Source: Candidatus Latescibacterota bacterium (GTDB lineage: Bacteria; JAAXHH01; JABIQT01). Taken from it: a stretch of 31,252 nucleotides of DNA. Each line of letters starts with the position of its first letter. Within the stretch, counting starts at the first letter, position 1. The notes beneath the pieces are model-generated. The model ran no database searches. It had not been told where the DNA came from and saw only the letters and a program-made list of their open reading frames with translations. Shown here piece after piece: positions 2,962-10,761 of this stretch. Location: contig JABIQT010000134.1 of the NCBI GenBank assembly GCA_018667995.1, positions 1-31,252 of the forward strand, given 5' to 3'. The translations under genes and the position numbers were made by a program.

Positions 2962-4320
2962 ATGCCGTCGGACCGGTCAGAGAAGGCCGAGACGATACCC
3001 GCCAACCGCCGTGGTCCTTCCAGGCGATCTGAAGACCGAAATAGTAAAGAATCCTACCTGAAGGCTATAGAACGCTCGGGGAACCTCGCGAAACTCGTTG
3101 AGATCACCGCCTTCATGAACTCGACTATTGTTCTGGAAGATCTCCTTACACGGATTATGGCCGCCTCAAAAAGGGTGGCCAATGCAGAGGCAGGTAGTCT
3201 CTTTTTGTTGGATTCGGATAGTTGTGATCTGATGCCCTACATTATAGAAGGTGGGGCAGGCGGAGAGCTAAAAGCCCTACCTCCATTAAAGAAAGGTCAT
3301 GGTATTGCAGGCTGGGTGGCTCAATCCGGCGAGTCGGAACTCATTGATGATGCCTACGAACATCCTAAATTTGATCCTGCCTATGACAAAAAAACCGGCT
3401 ACCGTACAAGATCGATGATCTGCGTACCGATTGTCTCGAATCAAGTCGTGATCGGCGTCTCTCAGGTCATCAACAGAATTAATGGCGAAAGGTTCAACAA
3501 AGAAGATTTGGCACTCTTTGAAGCCTTCTGTATACAGGCGGCAATCGCCATTCAAAACGCTAGAATGCATGAAGCACTCTTGACGCGGCAACGCTTAGAG
3601 CAAGATCTTCAGTTTGCCACAACAATACAACAGAGCTTTCTTCCCCAACACGCACCCGATATAACCGGCTTTTCCTTTGCTACGACCTATATATCCGCAC
3701 AGGAAGTCGGCGGGGATTTTTTCGATTACATCGAGTTTCCCGATAATAGAATTGGTGTTCTAGTAGGTGATGTATCTGGAAAAGGGGTTCCAGCTGCACT
3801 ATACATGGCAAGATTGATGAGCGATTTCAGGGTAATTGCCTTGTCTGAACATATACCGACAAGAGTGGTTAGCCGAGTCAATAATATGCTTGTGGAAAGA
3901 AGTCGTAGGGGCATGTTTGTTACCCTTTTGTATATCCTGATAGAAATAAAAGAGAGACTGATAACCGTTATCAACGCAGGACACCTTCCACCGTTGATGA
4001 GGCGGGGAATCGACGGTAAAGTGGTTGCTCTGGATGAAACGGGAGGATGCCCGCTTGGTATATTACCCGACGCGAACTTTCAGGCTCAGTGCTTTCCAAT
4101 TGAACAGGGCGACATGATACTCGCTTATACGGATGGTGTCATGGAGGCCCGAAGTGCCTCAAAGGAAGAGTTTGGACTTGAGCGACTTTCCGATATACTT
4201 GAAGGCGGACCAGAAAGTGCCGACGGTATGATCCAAGCCGTTCAGCGCGAACTGCTGTTGTTTACTGGGAACCGACCATCTCACGATGACCTGACTATGC
4301 TGTGCATGGGAGTTGAGTGA
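2962..4320 (+). CDS. GAF domain-containing PP2C-type serine phosphatase (RsbU/SpoIIE-like)
   Basis: This 452-aa cytoplasmic protein has a GAF sensor domain (about 45-200) joined by a short helical linker (about 205-230) to a SpoIIE/RsbU-type PP2C phosphatase domain (about 235-450). The metal-binding acidic residues are present: GGDFFD (D252, D255), GDVSGKG (D270), YTDG (D391) and HDD (442-443). In the family these enzymes dephosphorylate a STAS anti-anti-sigma protein. The expected kinase and STAS partners are the next two genes. The start ATG has a ribosome binding site (AAAGGA) about 8 nt upstream. There is no clear promoter in the 81-nt gap behind the EF-G gene, so transcription may read through from 683-711. 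The GAF ligand cannot be told from sequence. Confidence 0.93.
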   Translation: MPSDRSEKAETIPANRRGPSRRSEDRNSKESYLKAIERSGNLAKLVEITAFMNSTIVLEDLLTRIMAASKRVANAEAGSLFLLDSDSCDLMPYIIEGGAGGELKALPPLKKGHGIAGWVAQSGESELIDDAYEHPKFDPAYDKKTGYRTRSMICVPIVSNQVVIGVSQVINRINGERFNKEDLALFEAFCIQAAIAIQNARMHEALLTRQRLEQDLQFATTIQQSFLPQHAPDITGFSFATTYISAQEVGGDFFDYIEFPDNRIGVLVGDVSGKGVPAALYMARLMSDFRVIALSEHIPTRVVSRVNNMLVERSRRGMFVTLLYILIEIKERLITVINAGHLPPLMRRGIDGKVVALDETGGCPLGILPDANFQAQCFPIEQGDMILAYTDGVMEARSASKEEFGLERLSDILEGGPESADGMIQAVQRELLLFTGNRPSHDDLTMLCMGVE

Positions 4321-4772
4321 TGAGTGATGTTACGGCGCTCGACGGATCGGTTACCGTGACAGTACCTAGCAGCCCCAAATACCTGCGTATCGTCCGCCGT
4401 GTACTCGAGGCGTACATGGAAGACCTGTCTTTGGATCCCGCCGAACTACAACATATTATCCTCGCAGTAGACGAGGCATGCTCGAATGTGATAAAGTACG
4501 CCTACGCCTTCGATGACACTAAGAAAATATCAGTGTCTGTGTCAGATACAACTGGCCAGCTCGAATTCACCATACGTGACTTTGGTAAGAAGCCTGATGT
4601 GACTTCCATTACCCCACGTGACCTTGACGACGTTCGTCCGGGTGGACTTGGTACACATTTTATTCAATGCGTTATGGATGAGGTGTCGTATGATATCAAT
4701 AACGATGTGGGAACCTTACTGAGGATGTCCATAAAATACAGGGTCGCCGAGACGGCCGAAAAGGTAGACTGA
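4320..4772 (+). CDS. RsbW-like serine kinase / anti-sigma factor (HATPase_c)
   Basis: This 150-aa protein of the GHKL ATPase fold is the size of RsbW/SpoIIAB. The N-box is present in VDEACSNVIKY (50-60; E52, N56), the G1 box as DFG (87-89), and the G2 box as GGLGTH (108-113). Family role: it phosphorylates a STAS partner on Ser/Thr and binds the unphosphorylated partner or a client protein. I prefer the ATG at 4320, which overlaps the upstream stop by one base (TGATG), over the GTG at 4317, because the GGGAG at 4308-4312 sits 7 nt from the ATG. One base separates its stop from the STAS gene. No sigma factor gene lies nearby, so the client may not be a sigma factor. Confidence 0.92.
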   Translation: MSDVTALDGSVTVTVPSSPKYLRIVRRVLEAYMEDLSLDPAELQHIILAVDEACSNVIKYAYAFDDTKKISVSVSDTTGQLEFTIRDFGKKPDVTSITPRDLDDVRPGGLGTHFIQCVMDEVSYDINNDVGTLLRMSIKYRVAETAEKVD

Positions 4773-4773
4773 C

Positions 4774-5118
4774 ATGGCATTAGAAATAGTTCTCCGTCAC
4801 CCGGCTGCCGGAATAGCCGTGCTGGCAATAAATGGAGAGGTAGATATGGGTAGCGCCTCGCAACTGAGAGACCAGTTGACACCAATTATCGCATCAGGAG
4901 CCGGGGTTGTCGTGGTTGATCTATCAAAAGTGAGCTACATGGACAGTTCCGGGATTGCGACGCTGGTAGAGGGACTGCAATCATCAATGAAGCGAGGAAT
5001 CACTTTCCGACTCTCCGATTTGAACTCCGCAGTTTTGGACGTATTCAAACTGGCACGACTTGACAGTGTTTTCAAGGTCTACGACACGACAGAAGCTGCC
5101 GTAGACGATCAGCCTTAA
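4774..5118 (+). CDS. STAS domain protein (RsbV/SpoIIAA-like antagonist; possibly MlaB-like)
   Basis: This 114-aa protein is a single STAS domain. The motif MDSSGIATL (56-64) carries the serine pair (S58/S59) at the position phosphorylated in SpoIIAA and RsbV. The motif VVVVDLSKVSYMD precedes it, as in the family. The gene starts one base after the kinase stop and ends six bases before the MlaE permease gene. In E. coli, MlaB is a STAS subunit of the MlaFEDB transporter, so this protein could serve as kinase target, transporter subunit, or both. The dual role is inference; assignment to the STAS family is clear. Confidence 0.92.
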   Translation: MALEIVLRHPAAGIAVLAINGEVDMGSASQLRDQLTPIIASGAGVVVVDLSKVSYMDSSGIATLVEGLQSSMKRGITFRLSDLNSAVLDVFKLARLDSVFKVYDTTEAAVDDQP

Positions 5119-5124
5119 TCCAAC

Positions 5125-5916
5125 ATGATTTCCAATACCTTCGGTTGGATCGGGCGCAAGACCATACGTTTTTTCGCACATGTAACGAACATCTCGTATC
5201 TCGGATGGGATATTCTCTATTGGATCTTTGTTGGTCCATGGGTAGGTCGGCCATTGCGCTGGCGAAATGTCATCCAAGAGATGGATGATCTTGGGGCACG
5301 GTCATTTCCGCTAATCGGGACAATGTCAGTTTCTCTTGGCACTGTGATTATCGTAATCATAGGTCCGCAATTCCAAGCTTTTGGCATACCCGACTATGTT
5401 CCTGAGCTCGTTACGGTCTTCCTTGTGCGCGAACTCAGTCCACTGCTTACCGGGGTCGTGCTAGCTGGACGTGTAGGGTCAATGGTTACAGCGCGACTAG
5501 GTACTATGGTGACGGACGACGAAGTACTAGCGCTGGAGGTAATGGCTATTGAGCCCGTCGAATACCTCATGGTACCGAAATTTATTGCCACTGTGGTCAT
5601 GCTCCCGTGTTTGACTATTCTAGCCGATTTGATAGGTATGACTACAAGCCTTATTATAGCGACCTTTGGCCTGGATCTGCCTTTTCAGAGTTACTTGGAC
5701 GGCGTCTTGGGGGCATGTACCTTAACTGATGTTACGTTCAGTTTATTCAAAAGTGTTATCTTTGGGATTGTCATTATTCTGGTATCCTGCTATCAAGGTG
5801 TGAATACTGAGGGAGGCGCAGAGGAAGTCGGTAGCGCCACCATGGTATCTGTTGTTACCTGCACGATCTCAGTCATTTTACTCAACGGCTTCATGACCAT
5901 CATGTTCTATCTATAG
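5125..5916 (+). CDS. mlaE: MlaE-family ABC lipid transporter permease
   Basis: This 263-aa polytopic inner-membrane protein has several hydrophobic segments (about 62-82, 95-115, 150-182, 205-222 and 240-262). The family signature RELSPLLTGVVLAGRVGSMV (102-121), followed by TARLGTM, is the MlaE version of the coupling region. Family role: permease of the Mla/MCE system that moves phospholipids between inner and outer membrane. It lies between the STAS gene (6-nt gap) and the ATPase gene (12-nt gap). An amphipathic N-terminal helix before the first membrane segment (about 10-50) is usual for the family. Confidence 0.92.
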   Translation: MISNTFGWIGRKTIRFFAHVTNISYLGWDILYWIFVGPWVGRPLRWRNVIQEMDDLGARSFPLIGTMSVSLGTVIIVIIGPQFQAFGIPDYVPELVTVFLVRELSPLLTGVVLAGRVGSMVTARLGTMVTDDEVLALEVMAIEPVEYLMVPKFIATVVMLPCLTILADLIGMTTSLIIATFGLDLPFQSYLDGVLGACTLTDVTFSLFKSVIFGIVIILVSCYQGVNTEGGAEEVGSATMVSVVTCTISVILLNGFMTIMFYL

Positions 5917-5928
5917 CGAGATTATGCC

Positions 5929-6720
5929 ATGATTCGCGTCCAAGGACTCTCCAAAACCTTTGGCAATCTCAAGGTGCTCGATGATCTGTCTCTGACCTGT
6001 TCCAAGGGCGAGATCACTGCAATTATCGGCGGTAGTGGTGGTGGCAAGAGCACATTTCTGAAGATGCTGGTAGGAGCTGTGAAGCCAGATTCCGGTGAAA
6101 TTTGGGTTGACGGTAGCCCCATACATGCCCTCGAAGACCTGGCTCTCAATGATGTACGGCGGAAAATGGGAGTACTCTTTCAACAGGCTGCGCTGTTCAA
6201 ATCGATAACTGTTGCAGAAAATGTAGCGTTGCCGCTGGTGGAGAATACGGATCTCGATGAATCCGTGGTGGCGATCATTGTCAAGATGAAGCTGGATCAG
6301 GTGGGTCTTAGCGACTTTGACCAGTATCTGCCGTCTCAACTGAGCAGCGGTATGCAGAGGTTGGTTGGTCTGGCAAGGGCCATCGCACTTGATCCAAAAA
6401 TAGTTCTCTATGATGCGCCTACTGCCGGCCTCGATCCGATTGCAGCCAGCGCAATCTCGAAGTTGATAAAGGACCTCAATCAAGTCCTCGGTATTACGTC
6501 TATTTTGGTAACGCATGATATAATGGGCGCTGTAGAAATTGCGGATCATATGGCCTTGATGTACCAGGGTCGGATACTTCATCAAGGCTCACCCGAAGAG
6601 CTTCTAGCGTCCCCGGAACCCTCTGTACGGCAGTTTATGCATGGAGATCCGGACGGCCCCATTCAGTTTCGCAAATCACGTGAAGAGTACGAAAAGGCGC
6701 TATTTGAAGAAGCGCAATAG
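5929..6720 (+). CDS. mlaF: MlaF-family ABC transporter ATP-binding protein, Walker B Glu replaced by Ala
   Basis: This 263-aa ABC ATPase belongs to the MCE lipid transporter class. Walker A is GGSGGGKS (34-41), the Q-loop is FQQ (84-86), the signature is LSSGMQRL (138-145) and the H-loop is VTHD (H196). Walker B reads IVLYDAPTAGLDP (158-170). The residue after Asp162, normally the catalytic Glu, is Ala163 (codon GCG). Other ATPase motifs are intact and the gene is full length with both transporter partners, so it is not obviously a pseudogene. The substitution may mean slow hydrolysis, a different general base, or a family variant. The start ATG at 5929 fits spacing after the permease stop. 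Confidence 0.92.
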   Translation: MIRVQGLSKTFGNLKVLDDLSLTCSKGEITAIIGGSGGGKSTFLKMLVGAVKPDSGEIWVDGSPIHALEDLALNDVRRKMGVLFQQAALFKSITVAENVALPLVENTDLDESVVAIIVKMKLDQVGLSDFDQYLPSQLSSGMQRLVGLARAIALDPKIVLYDAPTAGLDPIAASAISKLIKDLNQVLGITSILVTHDIMGAVEIADHMALMYQGRILHQGSPEELLASPEPSVRQFMHGDPDGPIQFRKSREEYEKALFEEAQ

Positions 6721-6731
6721 AGAGCTGTGCC

Positions 6732-7658
6732 ATCAAATATCAACATTCTGAAATTCGCGTTGGACTCGTAGTAGTCCTTGCAGCTTTGACGCTTGCCTCG
6801 ATGGTTTTCTTTTACGGAAATTTGGCAGAATTGCTCCATTCGCGAATGGAGTTGGTCGTTCAGTTTCCGGCAGGAACGAGTGGTGGCCTGAATCCGGGAT
6901 CTGATGTTCGGGTTGCCGGACATACGGTCGGAGTAGTCACCAGTGTCGGCATCAACGAAAATCAACAGGTCGAGCTCCTAATTCAAATGGATGATACCAT
7001 AGCTATCAAAACCAATTCCAAGGCGACTGTCAAAACAATCGGAATTCTCGGTGGGGAGAAATACCTTAATATAACGCCCGGCACACCTGAGGCACCATTG
7101 CTTAAGGCGCAGGACATTATTATCGGCGAAGAGGGAATCGCAGTTGAGGAACTACTGTTCACGGTTTCGGATATAGCAAAGAATACGCAGCGGATTACCG
7201 CCTCGGTAGACAGATTTCTGTCGAGCGATGAGGAACCGGGGGAATTCCTTGTTACGCTGGACAAAGCACAGGAGTTACTTGATCGGGTGAACCGCACGAT
7301 TACGGACGTGGACAGAATGCTAAATACCAATGAGAAGAGTATTCGTGCCATGGTTGATCAAGTGACCCACATAACCGGCCAGGTCAATGAGATATTGGTC
7401 GACAATCGGGGTAAGATTGATACAACATTTACCAATCTGCAGAAAGTCAGTCTGGAATTGCCCGAGGTCTTGGGTGGGATACGTGGTGTTCTTGTCGATA
7501 TCCGGACAGTGGCATCAAGACTGAAGGGCGGCGAGGGCACAGCTGGACGACTCATCAAGGATGACGAACTCTACCTGCGGATCCAGCGGCTGATAGACGA
7601 CACAGACATCCTCATAAAGCACGTTAAGAAGGAAGGCATTAGAATCAAGGTCTTCTAA
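6732..7658 (+). CDS. mlaD: MlaD/MCE domain substrate-binding protein with probable ATC start
   Basis: This MCE-family periplasmic lipid-binding subunit is anchored by one N-terminal membrane helix. Starting at ATC 6732 gives 308 aa: a cytoplasmic stub, a membrane helix (about 8-29), an MCE domain (about 38-120) and a long helical tail (about 140-300). The family usually starts M-K-Y-x-x-E-I-x-V-G; here the frame reads I-K-Y-Q-H-S-E-I-R-V-G. No in-frame ATG, GTG or TTG precedes the membrane helix. The first standard start, TTG at 6786, falls inside the helix and would destroy it. A GAGAG at 6720-6724 lies 7 nt before the ATC. The alternatives are a base error (ATG to ATC) or a real non-AUG start. 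It is the last gene of the operon, 11 nt after mlaF. Confidence 0.85.
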   Translation: MKYQHSEIRVGLVVVLAALTLASMVFFYGNLAELLHSRMELVVQFPAGTSGGLNPGSDVRVAGHTVGVVTSVGINENQQVELLIQMDDTIAIKTNSKATVKTIGILGGEKYLNITPGTPEAPLLKAQDIIIGEEGIAVEELLFTVSDIAKNTQRITASVDRFLSSDEEPGEFLVTLDKAQELLDRVNRTITDVDRMLNTNEKSIRAMVDQVTHITGQVNEILVDNRGKIDTTFTNLQKVSLELPEVLGGIRGVLVDIRTVASRLKGGEGTAGRLIKDDELYLRIQRLIDDTDILIKHVKKEGIRIKVF

Positions 7659-7792
7659 TCTAATCGCACGCAACGGATTGAATCATTGACGGAGCCGATG
7701 CCTGACGGCTTATTGTCGTGGTGCCGTCTGATCTGTTACATCCGGATGGTTTATTCAGAAACTCGGTAGTCCCTCATTTGGGAAGGATAGAC

Positions 7793-8773
7793 ATGGACGC
7801 ATTGCTCAGTGTAGAGAATCTTGAAACTCATTATTTCACCAGGGCCGGCGTGGTCAAGGCTGTAAATGATATCAGTTTCTCAGTAGCGGAGGGAGAAACG
7901 GTAGGCATTGTTGGGGAAAGTGGATGCGGCAAGAGTGCCACAGTGCTCTCAATAATGCAGTTGATCCCGGATCCGCCTGGCAAGACGGTAGGTGGTCGTA
8001 TCATGTTTTCGCCTGGAGACGGAAAGGAACCGGTTGATTTACGAACTCTACCCGAGTCAAGTATGCAAAAGATCCGCGGAAACGATGTCGCCATGGTATT
8101 TCAGGATCCCATGACTTCCCTGAATCCGGTGTTGACCATTGGCTGGCAGTTGCGCGAACCACTGCAGATCCATATGGGTATGAATAAGACACAAGCCGAG
8201 GACCGTTCTATTGAATTGCTCAAGCTTGTGAATATCCCAAGTCCGGAGAATAGACTTAATGACTATCCACACCAGTTCAGCGGTGGTATGCGCCAAAGGG
8301 TTATGATCGCTATGGCCATTGCGTGTAATCCACGACTCCTGGTAGCGGATGAGCCTACTACAGCACTAGATGTGACTATTCAGGCTCAAATTCTGGAGCT
8401 GATGCAGAAGATTCAGGCTGAGTTAAATATGTCGGTGGTGATAATTACGCATGATTTGGGTGTAGTGGGGGAGGTGTGTGACCGCGTCATTGTCATGTAT
8501 GCAGGTAGGATCGTGGAAACTGCACCAGTTGATGAGCTGTTCGAGAATCCTAAGCACCCCTATACCAACGGACTTTTGAGATCCGTCCCCAAAATGGGGG
8601 AAAATGTAAAAGAGCGCATTGAACCTATTGAAGGAGCACCGCCAAATCTGACAGCGATGCCGCCGGGCTGCAGCTTCGCCCCACGGTGTAGCCACAGAAC
8701 CGCGCAGTGCGATCAGGAACCGCAGCTAAAGGAAGTTGGGGCAGACCATGACTGTTCCTGTTGGCTTTACTGA
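7793..8773 (+). CDS. Oligopeptide/dipeptide ABC transporter ATP-binding protein (DppD/OppD-like)
   Basis: This 326-aa ATPase has Walker A GESGCGKS (41-48), signature FSGGMRQR (162-169), Walker B LLVADEPT (182-189) and a His switch in ITHD. A C-terminal oligo_HPY region carries the cysteine cluster [15 protein letters not shown], a spacing typical of DppD/OppD proteins that can hold an iron-sulfur cluster. I chose the ATG at 7793 because GGAAGGA lies 5 nt upstream; the frame is open further back to GTG 7718 but that adds an unusual 25-residue leader. The cognate permeases and binding protein are not in the window, so they must lie elsewhere. The 134-nt gap behind mlaD holds only a weak promoter candidate (TTGACG at 7686). 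Confidence 0.93.
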
Positions 8774-8799
8774 TTGAAGCGTCATTTGAGGAGGGTGCT

Positions 8800-9768
8800 T
8801 TGGCGGAAACACTATTAGACATCAAGAATCTTACCAAACATTTCCTGCTAGAGAAGGCAATGGGACGCGGGAGCGAACCGGACGTAGTCCGGGCTCTTGA
8901 CGGTGTTTCCTTCTCAATAGAAGCTGGAGAGACGTTTGGACTGGTGGGTGAGAGCGGTTGTGGCAAATCGACCTTGGGCCTCACAGTTCTGCAATTACAT
9001 CGCCCTACTGCGGGACAGATTATTTTCGAGGATGTGGATCTGGCAACTATGTCAGACAACGACCTGAAACCCGTGCGCCAGCGACTACAGATGATATTTC
9101 AGGACCCCTATGCCTCACTTGATCCCAGAATGACGGTTGGGGGTATTATTCAGGAGCCGCTTGATATCCACCGGGTTGGCTCTCGGGATGAAAGACGCAA
9201 GCAGGTCATCAAACTGATGGACATGGTAGGTCTTGGCTCAGAATTCGTGGATAGATATCCCCATGAATTTAGTGGTGGCCAACGTCAGCGCATTGGGATT
9301 GCTAGAGCCATCGCCCTCAACCCAAAATTGATTATATGCGATGAGCCAGTTTCGGCATTAGACGTGTCAATTCAGGTCCAGGTGTTGAATCTTCTTAATG
9401 ATCTTCAGCAGGAATTGGGGCTCACATATTTGTTTATCGCGCATAACTTGGCAGTGGTGGCCCACATCAGCGACCGAATCGGCGTGATGTATCTCGGAAA
9501 GCTAATAGAATTGGGCCCAGCTGCCCTGGTGACGGATAACCCGAAACATCCCTACACTCAGAGTCTTCTGTCTGCTGTTCCTGAGATTGATAAAAGGCGT
9601 CGCAAGAAGAGAATCCAATTAACCGGTGATGTTCCCAGCCCGGTAAATCCCCCATCAGGTTGCCGTTTTCACCCTAGATGTCCAATAGCAAAGCCAGACT
9701 GCAAAGAGAATGAGCCGGAGCTGAAGCAGGATGGAAGCGGACACTGGGTCTCGTGTCATTACGCGTAA
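8800..9768 (+). CDS. Oligopeptide/dipeptide ABC transporter ATP-binding protein (DppF/OppF-like)
   Basis: This 322-aa ATPase partners the preceding gene. Walker A is GESGCGKS (50-57), signature FSGGQRQR (157-164), Walker B LIICDEPVSALD (177-188) and H-loop IAHN. The C-terminal oligo_HPY motif is PSGCRFHPRCPIAKPDC. The start is TTG at 8800, just behind a strong GAGGAGGG at 8788-8795; an upstream in-frame TTG (8761) lacks such a site. In this family the two ATPases form a heterodimer that powers peptide uptake through two permeases. It follows the first ATPase by 26 nt. Confidence 0.93.
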   Translation: MAETLLDIKNLTKHFLLEKAMGRGSEPDVVRALDGVSFSIEAGETFGLVGESGCGKSTLGLTVLQLHRPTAGQIIFEDVDLATMSDNDLKPVRQRLQMIFQDPYASLDPRMTVGGIIQEPLDIHRVGSRDERRKQVIKLMDMVGLGSEFVDRYPHEFSGGQRQRIGIARAIALNPKLIICDEPVSALDVSIQVQVLNLLNDLQQELGLTYLFIAHNLAVVAHISDRIGVMYLGKLIELGPAALVTDNPKHPYTQSLLSAVPEIDKRRRKKRIQLTGDVPSPVNPPSGCRFHPRCPIAKPDCKENEPELKQDGSGHWVSCHYA

Positions 9769-9780
9769 AGCTATCCTCCG

Positions 9781-10761
9781 ATGACCTCAGAAAACAACCC
9801 CCGTTCAAGTTCACCAGCCTACGACGTGGTAACTATCGGTGAATGCATGCTTCGTTTCTCGCCTATTGAGGGAGAGATGCTGGAGCAGGCCAATACGCTG
9901 CATGTGAATCCTGCAGGTAGTGAATCCAGCACGGCCGTCGCCCTGTCACGAATGGGACTGGATGTAGCCTGGGTTTCCGCTCTCCCAGACTCGCCTCCAG
10001 GCAGGTGGATAGCCGACCGCCTGAAAATGCACGGCGTCGATACATCCCACACCATTTGGACCGATGACAGAATGGGGGCCTTTTTCTACGAACAGGGCAC
10101 TCCACCGAGAGGAAGCCGCGTCGTTTATGACCGAGCAGATTCCGCTGTTAGTCGCCTAACGCCCCAGCAGATCGATTGGCAACGCGTTGCGGACACTCGC
10201 TTGATGCATATCTCCGGTATAACACCAGCGCTAAGCGAAGACTGTCGGGACATCGCCATTAGAGCGTTGCGGGAGACCAGGGCGAATAACGGCAGGACAT
10301 CAATGGATATTAACTTTCGCGCTAAACTCTGGTCGCCGGATGCCGCAGCCGCCACACTAAGTCCCCTACTTAAAGAGTTGGATATACTCATATCCACAGC
10401 TTCGGATATTGAATTGTTATTCGACATTCGGGGCACTGAAGCGCAAGTCATTACCCAACTTAGGGATCGGTTTGGTCCCAGTATCATCGTGATCACACTC
10501 GCAACTGGCGGCGCATTTGGTTGGTCTGAACAGACGGGATTGGTCGAAACAGGACCTCACTCTGTGGAACAAGTGGACAGGTTGGGTGCAGGAGACGCCT
10601 TCGATGCGGGGTTGATCTATGGAATCTTGGACGATGATCTTCAACTGGGCCTTTCATGTGGCTCATCGCTGGCAGCCCTCTCTTACTCAGAAGAGGGAGA
10701 TATTGCGTGGCCGACCATCGAAGAGGTACTCACATTAACAGAGGTTGCTCGTGGCGGGTGA
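9781..10761 (+). CDS. PfkB-family sugar kinase, 2-keto-3-deoxygluconate kinase-like
   Basis: This 326-aa ribokinase-fold kinase opens with YDVVTIGECMLRFSP (14-28), typical of KDG kinases. The C-terminal PfkB signature is DRLGAGDAFDAGLI (266-279), with the catalytic base Asp272. The motif SMDINFRAKLW (174-184) corresponds to the D-x-N-x-R-x-x-LW segment of KDG kinases. Likely reaction: ATP-dependent phosphorylation of 2-keto-3-deoxygluconate to KDPG, but other 2-keto sugars are possible. No KDPG aldolase or uronate genes are nearby. It starts 12 nt after the ABC ATPase; no clear ribosome binding site is seen, so it may depend on translational coupling. Confidence 0.85.
   Translation: MTSENNPRSSSPAYDVVTIGECMLRFSPIEGEMLEQANTLHVNPAGSESSTAVALSRMGLDVAWVSALPDSPPGRWIADRLKMHGVDTSHTIWTDDRMGAFFYEQGTPPRGSRVVYDRADSAVSRLTPQQIDWQRVADTRLMHISGITPALSEDCRDIAIRALRETRANNGRTSMDINFRAKLWSPDAAAATLSPLLKELDILISTASDIELLFDIRGTEAQVITQLRDRFGPSIIVITLATGGAFGWSEQTGLVETGPHSVEQVDRLGAGDAFDAGLIYGILDDDLQLGLSCGSSLAALSYSEEGDIAWPTIEEVLTLTEVARGG

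Follow-up and report, generated by a model that had tools for sequence, protein, structure and literature searches.

In the lipid transporter MlaFEDB of Escherichia coli the ABC ATPase MlaF is bound by a small STAS protein, MlaB, and in the MlaFB structure the C-terminal extension of MlaF (Tyr261, Leu265 and Leu266) inserts between the helical subdomain of MlaF and MlaB, whose Thr52 lies close to the middle of the interface (PMC7367683). Without MlaB the MlaF complex is destabilised (PMC5016091, PMC7367683), and a T52E substitution weakens MlaF binding (PMC7367683). Phosphorylation of Thr52 was proposed in 2016 and in 2020, the kinase and phosphatase not being known there (PMC5016091, PMC7367683). 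Here we analyse a 31,252-nucleotide (nt) contig of a Candidatus Latescibacterota bacterium (JABIQT010000134.1, the whole of which we call the window), in which genes for a phosphatase, an RsbW-type kinase and a STAS protein stand directly before mlaE, mlaF and mlaD. This operon probably supplies the long-missing candidate kinase and phosphatase for an MlaB-type subunit. We put at roughly 0.5 the probability of an ancient, multi-phylum circuit in which the MlaB-type subunit gains a phosphate from a dedicated kinase and loses it to a GAF-sensing phosphatase, so that partner switching governs an ABC transporter ATPase directly.

The locus shares with E. coli MlaFEDB an MlaE, an MlaF of the same group with the signature Met and the C-terminal "handshake" with MlaB, an MCE protein, and a STAS protein with Ser/Thr at the Thr52 position. 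It differs in its kinase, since E. coli has no RsbW-type match at E<=1e-12 (control search), and in the place of its STAS gene, which adjoins mlaE, whereas E. coli MlaB, a minimal STAS protein of 97 amino acids, is encoded at the far end of the operon. The regulatory half resembles the Bacillus subtilis RsbU-RsbV-RsbW and SpoIIE-SpoIIAA-SpoIIAB partner switches (PP2C phosphatase, GHKL serine kinase with N and G boxes, STAS acceptor with DSSG), but no sigma factor accompanies the module, its client would be an ABC transporter ATPase, and the kinase lineage is separate. The likeness to SiaABCD of Pseudomonas aeruginosa lies in the proposed mechanism: there a small adaptor is phosphorylated and dephosphorylated by a kinase and a phosphatase, and in its unphosphorylated form it binds and activates an enzyme directly, although that client is a diguanylate cyclase (PMC8457831) and the presumed client here a transporter. 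In STAS-MlaE fusion permeases (PMC5016091; locus L029 in our set) a STAS domain is likewise tied to MlaE, but the window STAS protein is free-standing and kinase-linked, whereas in L029 the acceptor position is Gly and the available stretch shows no linked kinase. The parts are known; the presumed client and the linkage are new, and no paper naming RsbW and MlaE together was found in the collection of open-access papers searched (subscription papers and preprints lay outside the search).

An earlier reading of this stretch from its letters alone (the original prediction) had described six co-directional genes, and its account of the operon proved accurate, though it overlooked two features of mlaF and mlaD that are described below: all six lie on the forward (+) strand and Pfam names their families. 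The first encodes a GAF-PP2C phosphatase of the SpoIIE/RsbU type (2962..4320; GAF, 6e-19, residues 58-197; SpoIIE, 1e-49, the PP2C domain occupying residues 260-451), the second an RsbW/SpoIIAB-type serine kinase (4317..4772; HATPase_c_2, PF13581, 8e-28, with a profile match to RsbW 6m36) and the third the STAS protein, the MlaB equivalent and presumed phospho-acceptor (4774..5118; STAS, 1e-21). They are followed by the permease MlaE (5125..5916; PF02405, 5.5e-64), by the ATPase MlaF (5929..6720; ABC_tran, the best PDB matches being MlaF of MlaFEDB structures), whose C-terminal extension QFMHGDPDGPIQFRKSREEYEKALFEEAQ (6631..6717) has Y, L and F at the positions of E. coli Tyr261, Leu265 and Leu266, and by a long-tailed MlaD/MCE protein (6732..7658; PF02470, 2.7e-16). 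MlaE, MlaF and an MCE-domain MlaD, the components of an Mla/MCE transporter, are thus encoded in one operon; the best NCBIfam scores of the window proteins for MlaF, TIGR00056 and MlaD all fall under the family cut-offs. The junctions are a 1-nt overlap (kinase ATG at 4320) and then gaps of 1, 6, 12 and 11 nt, as had been stated; if the kinase starts at GTG 4317 instead, it overlaps the phosphatase by 4 nt. The window also holds the enzymes and the acceptor of a partner switch: metal-binding Asp residues in the phosphatase (GGDFFD, GDVSGKG, TDG and HDD, the motifs having been checked in full for this protein), intact N, G1 and G2 boxes in the kinase (E53/N57, with codons at 4473-4475 and 4485-4487; D88/G90; G110/G112), and DSSG at residues 57-60 of the STAS protein, with the acceptor S58 at codon 4945-4947. 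No sigma factor gene is present among the window's open reading frames (ORFs), and no GGDEF-type (diguanylate cyclase) gene was recognised among them, by reading the ORF list only.

We propose that the kinase and the phosphatase encoded in the operon would act on the STAS subunit of this Mla/MCE-type lipid ABC transporter. Unphosphorylated, this subunit would dock on MlaF, aided by the MlaF C-terminal handshake, and the transporter would be assembled and active; the RsbW-type kinase would bind the same helical face of the STAS protein and phosphorylate Ser58, which would release that protein from kinase and MlaF alike and turn the transporter off, and the GAF-controlled PP2C phosphatase would reverse the phosphorylation on a signal. 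This scheme is in line with the effects of MlaB loss and of Thr52 substitutions in E. coli, apart from a point on T52A given below. It is likely that STAS phosphorylation controls some aspect of the transporter; as to direction, we lean slightly towards the unphosphorylated STAS protein being the active form and the kinase turning the transporter off. The comparisons below support the conserved operon, the dedicated kinase lineage, kinase and acceptor residues intact in most lineages, and the MlaB-docking tail. The phosphorylation itself, a competition of the kinase with MlaF, the signal and which state is the active one are the parts that we infer.

The gene order is not unique to the window genome but recurs in other Latescibacterota-type genomes and in other phyla; kinase and STAS genes, usually with a phosphatase, share an operon with a membrane-lipid transporter in at least five phyla. 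Synteny is conserved in three Latescibacterota-type genomes. A genome of the same order, G013, is collinear throughout (EF-G, RsbU, RsbW, STAS, MlaE, MlaF, MlaD, DppD, DppF, PfkB), in G001 about 10 kb of unrelated genes between STAS and MlaE split the operon (L033; G001:C321, 5051-15280), and in G020, which belongs to another group, RsbW, STAS, MlaE (frameshifted), MlaF and MlaD are collinear. A scan of genome contigs by MlaE alignment gave 80 loci. RsbW-STAS-MlaE-F-D was seen in about 25 Nitrospinota records, some also with RsbU, and in Planctomycetota L122, and the full set in Auribacterota L077 and Planctomycetota L094; in Verrucomicrobiota (L047, L049, L055 and the Verrucomicrobiaceae loci) STAS-MlaE-F-D is followed by a single GAF-PP2C-HATPase fusion protein downstream of MlaD. 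Since the linkage survives re-ordering and gene fusion, functional coupling is indicated. Two side observations concern these loci. At Planctomycetota L106, L107, L110 and L111 a divergent STAS-RsbW-HAMP/PP2C module adjoins STAS-MlaE-F; L107 and its relatives have two STAS genes at one locus, and the kinase of L107 is not part of the Mla-linked clade. L048, whose record title is Emcibacteraceae, groups within Nitrospinota and is probably a mis-binned contig.

How often the genes travel together was counted in two samples. Among 60 MlaE loci from many bacterial families, picked from the higher-scoring MlaE matches and read over about 15 kb each, the kinase adjoined the STAS gene in 6 of 6 loci with STAS at mlaE, whereas 0 of 54 STAS-less loci had a kinase anywhere in the stretch read (Fisher 2e-8, relatedness uncorrected). 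Chance adjacency of switch and Mla genes is rejected by these counts and by the recurrence across genomes and phyla. The second sample comprised 60 genomes of the Nitrospinota group (the phylum of G020), in which the kinase subtype scores at least 137 bits and the next homologue 53 bits. It is present in 33, and 28 of these kinases adjoin MlaE when their coordinates are compared with those of the MlaE matches. As for the other five, G058 lies at a contig edge, G082 is broken by a transposase-like region, and G046, G047 and G085 have no MlaE match anywhere. At the G082 locus (L135; G082:C72, 1-2200) STAS is followed by transposase-like reading frames, and in the same genome the contig with MlaEFD stops just upstream of MlaE. 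We considered MlaE loss followed by module decay as evidence of dependence, and rejected it: G085, with its phosphatase broken into three pieces and a short STAS ORF, and G046, which has no STAS, would fit, but G047, with RsbW-STAS retained, does not, and frameshift errors in these assemblies are a possible cause of the apparent decay.

The operon STAS protein is most likely the MlaB subunit, the place that the original prediction had given it, because STAS-linked MlaF proteins carry the handshake and group with E. coli MlaF. It adjoins mlaE, its acceptor aligns with Thr52, and no separate STAS gene was seen near MlaE, which is single-copy in the window genome (one genome match); only the operon gene among the six STAS matches of that genome adjoins MlaE. 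The window MlaF aligns with that of E. coli without gaps through the tail (PDGPIQFRKSREEYEKALF versus ADGPVPFRYPAGDYHADLL), EYEKALF being in register with DYHADLL. Across 142 loci the tail motif is found in 66 of 68 STAS-linked MlaF proteins versus 8 of 74 others, and the median tail length is 30 versus 16 residues; at two of the eight STAS-less loci with the motif (G001 and G082) the STAS gene has been relocated. STAS-linked sequences cluster in a tree of the MlaF core, with two changes of STAS state, and E. coli MlaF joins 47 STAS-linked and 5 other sequences in a supported set of 53 rows.

Of 77 STAS sequences, 76 have Ser or Thr at the acceptor position, which aligns with E. coli MlaB Thr52, and 39 loci, spread over several phyla, combine DSSG with intact N and G boxes in the kinase. 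In the Verrucomicrobiaceae (L071-L098) the STAS motif reads NTPV and the G1 Asp of the kinase is His, in the same 15 loci; on these alignments, it is a joint change in one lineage. A natural kinase-STAS read-through chain from Nitrospina (L095) gave a structure model with a mean predicted local distance difference test score (pLDDT) of 89 and a predicted template modelling score (pTM) of 0.85, although its linker is disordered, which we read as a confident predicted placement of the two domains relative to each other.

The 26 Mla-linked kinases in our tree, that of the window included, form one clade (bootstrap 99, Shimodaira-Hasegawa-like approximate likelihood ratio test 95) apart from 29 others, among them same-genome paralogues and the RsbW and SpoIIAB proteins of B. 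subtilis partner switching, taken from PDB matches; on this phylogeny the Mla-linked kinase is a dedicated lineage. It is the sole RsbW-type protein at E<=1e-12 in three genomes (G020, G099 and G240). MlaE-linked STAS proteins also separate from other STAS proteins (support 94/89), with the window STAS protein inside the group; E. coli MlaB is too divergent for placement in this tree (branch 6.0). These lineages bear on an alternative explanation, a conventional partner switch in which the kinase acts as an anti-sigma factor with the STAS protein as its antagonist, and the sigma factor so controlled is encoded elsewhere and perhaps transcribes this operon. It would suit the fact that all three regulatory proteins come from families best known for sigma control, as well as the several further RsbW and STAS proteins in the window genome and the retention of RsbW-STAS in G047. 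We nevertheless consider it unlikely, because the window has no sigma gene, the kinases stand apart from their paralogues and from sigma-B/F kinases, the STAS-MlaE linkage is kept across phyla and through rearrangement and gene fusion, and the MlaF handshake accompanies STAS. A sigma factor elsewhere as the sole kinase client, an outcome that the original prediction had allowed for, is argued against by the dedicated lineage and by the three genomes with no other RsbW-type protein.

Several observations weigh against phosphorylation-controlled transport as we propose it. The window MlaF has Ala163 in place of the catalytic Walker-B Glu (E163A; GCG at 6415-6417), the only such case among 143 MlaF sequences, so that its ATPase is not catalytically complete, and its signature is LSSGM instead of LSGGM (6340-6354); MlaF of G013 (L034) has the signature LNPGM and has lost the H-loop His, the sole such loss in the same 143, where the only other signature change is in L187. 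Assembly error may be the source of these changes, yet two genomes of one order are hit at different motifs. No phosphatase lies within 8 kb at many Nitrospinota loci, STAS stands without a nearby kinase at both Acidobacteriota loci and at most of those from Chthoniobacterales, and G047 keeps its RsbW-STAS pair although MlaE was found nowhere in the genome. STAS linkage, handshake and kinase largely fall in one MlaF group; since STAS-linked MlaF is one old lineage, the correlations amount to few independent events, and phylogenetically independent pairs (STAS versus handshake, STAS versus kinase) gave only two contrasts and no power, so that repeated evolution is not claimed. For a STAS-MlaE-MlaF read-through chain AlphaFold gave a pTM of 0.46, too low to inform on the STAS-MlaF interface. 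Finally, in E. coli a T52A change abolishes ATPase activity though MlaB remains bound (PMC5016091), a result which shows that the site matters but at odds with a simple switch.

The altered MlaF proteins are also relevant to a further alternative, in which the STAS protein is a structural MlaB and the kinase reads free versus bound STAS as an envelope-lipid sensor, feeding another client. The STAS protein would be common to kinase and MlaF, which are expected to use the same face (PMC7367683, and the SpoIIAA paradigm), and the MlaB-binding tail is retained in both the window and G013 MlaF while their catalytic residues are altered, so that docking may outweigh hydrolysis there. We regard this dual role as improbable too: no second client gene was seen travelling with the operon, and the catalytic residues of MlaF are intact in most lineages, including the Nitrospinota relatives, and MlaF of G001 is canonical. 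A constitutive MlaB role for the STAS protein, with the neighbouring kinase and phosphatase as relics or passengers of little function, is very improbable, as 39 loci of several phyla have kept both the N/G boxes and DSSG, the kinases form an old, conserved clade and the GAF-PP2C architecture recurs, even if kinase and STAS motifs are eroded together in Verrucomicrobiaceae and some STAS-Mla loci have no kinase or phosphatase nearby.

The original prediction had outer-membrane lipid transport being turned on or off, and this claim is weakest where it was first seen, because the catalytic Glu is missing from the window MlaF and neither MlaA nor MlaC, both part of the E. coli system, was found in the window genome (G000; a 6.06 Mb assembly in 1165 contigs, 85% complete). 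MlaC was found in G001 and G013, and both MlaA and MlaC in G020. Also unlike E. coli, the window MlaD (6786-7658) has a long tail after its MCE domain, helical-looking by eye; given that tail and the failure to find MlaC and MlaA, the MlaD of this genome may be of a trans-envelope bridge type. The window mlaD has no in-frame ATG, GTG or TTG ahead of the membrane segment, the first being TTG 6786, and its relative in G001 has ATG where the window reads ATC (6732); the first codon is probably ATC 6732, unless the start has been lost.

Outside the operon, a fusA-type EF-G gene lies upstream (793-2880; identified from ORFs and synteny), and two oligopeptide-type ABC ATPases (DppD and DppF) and a PfkB-type kinase lie downstream (7718-10761; from ORF reading and synteny). 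Elsewhere in the window genome RsbW-type proteins are encoded on contigs C442, C903, C1071, C1123 and C279 (L137-L141), some apparently as domain fusions; that of C1071 neighbours both a STAS gene and a large protein resembling a sensor.

As the kinase stays with the transporter across phyla, the question of MlaB regulation becomes testable by reconstitution. The circuit would extend partner switching beyond transcription and cyclic di-GMP enzymes to an ABC transporter. If true, lipid transport would be controlled by phosphorylation, and this could be the ancestral regulation of MlaB, later lost in Proteobacteria such as E. coli.

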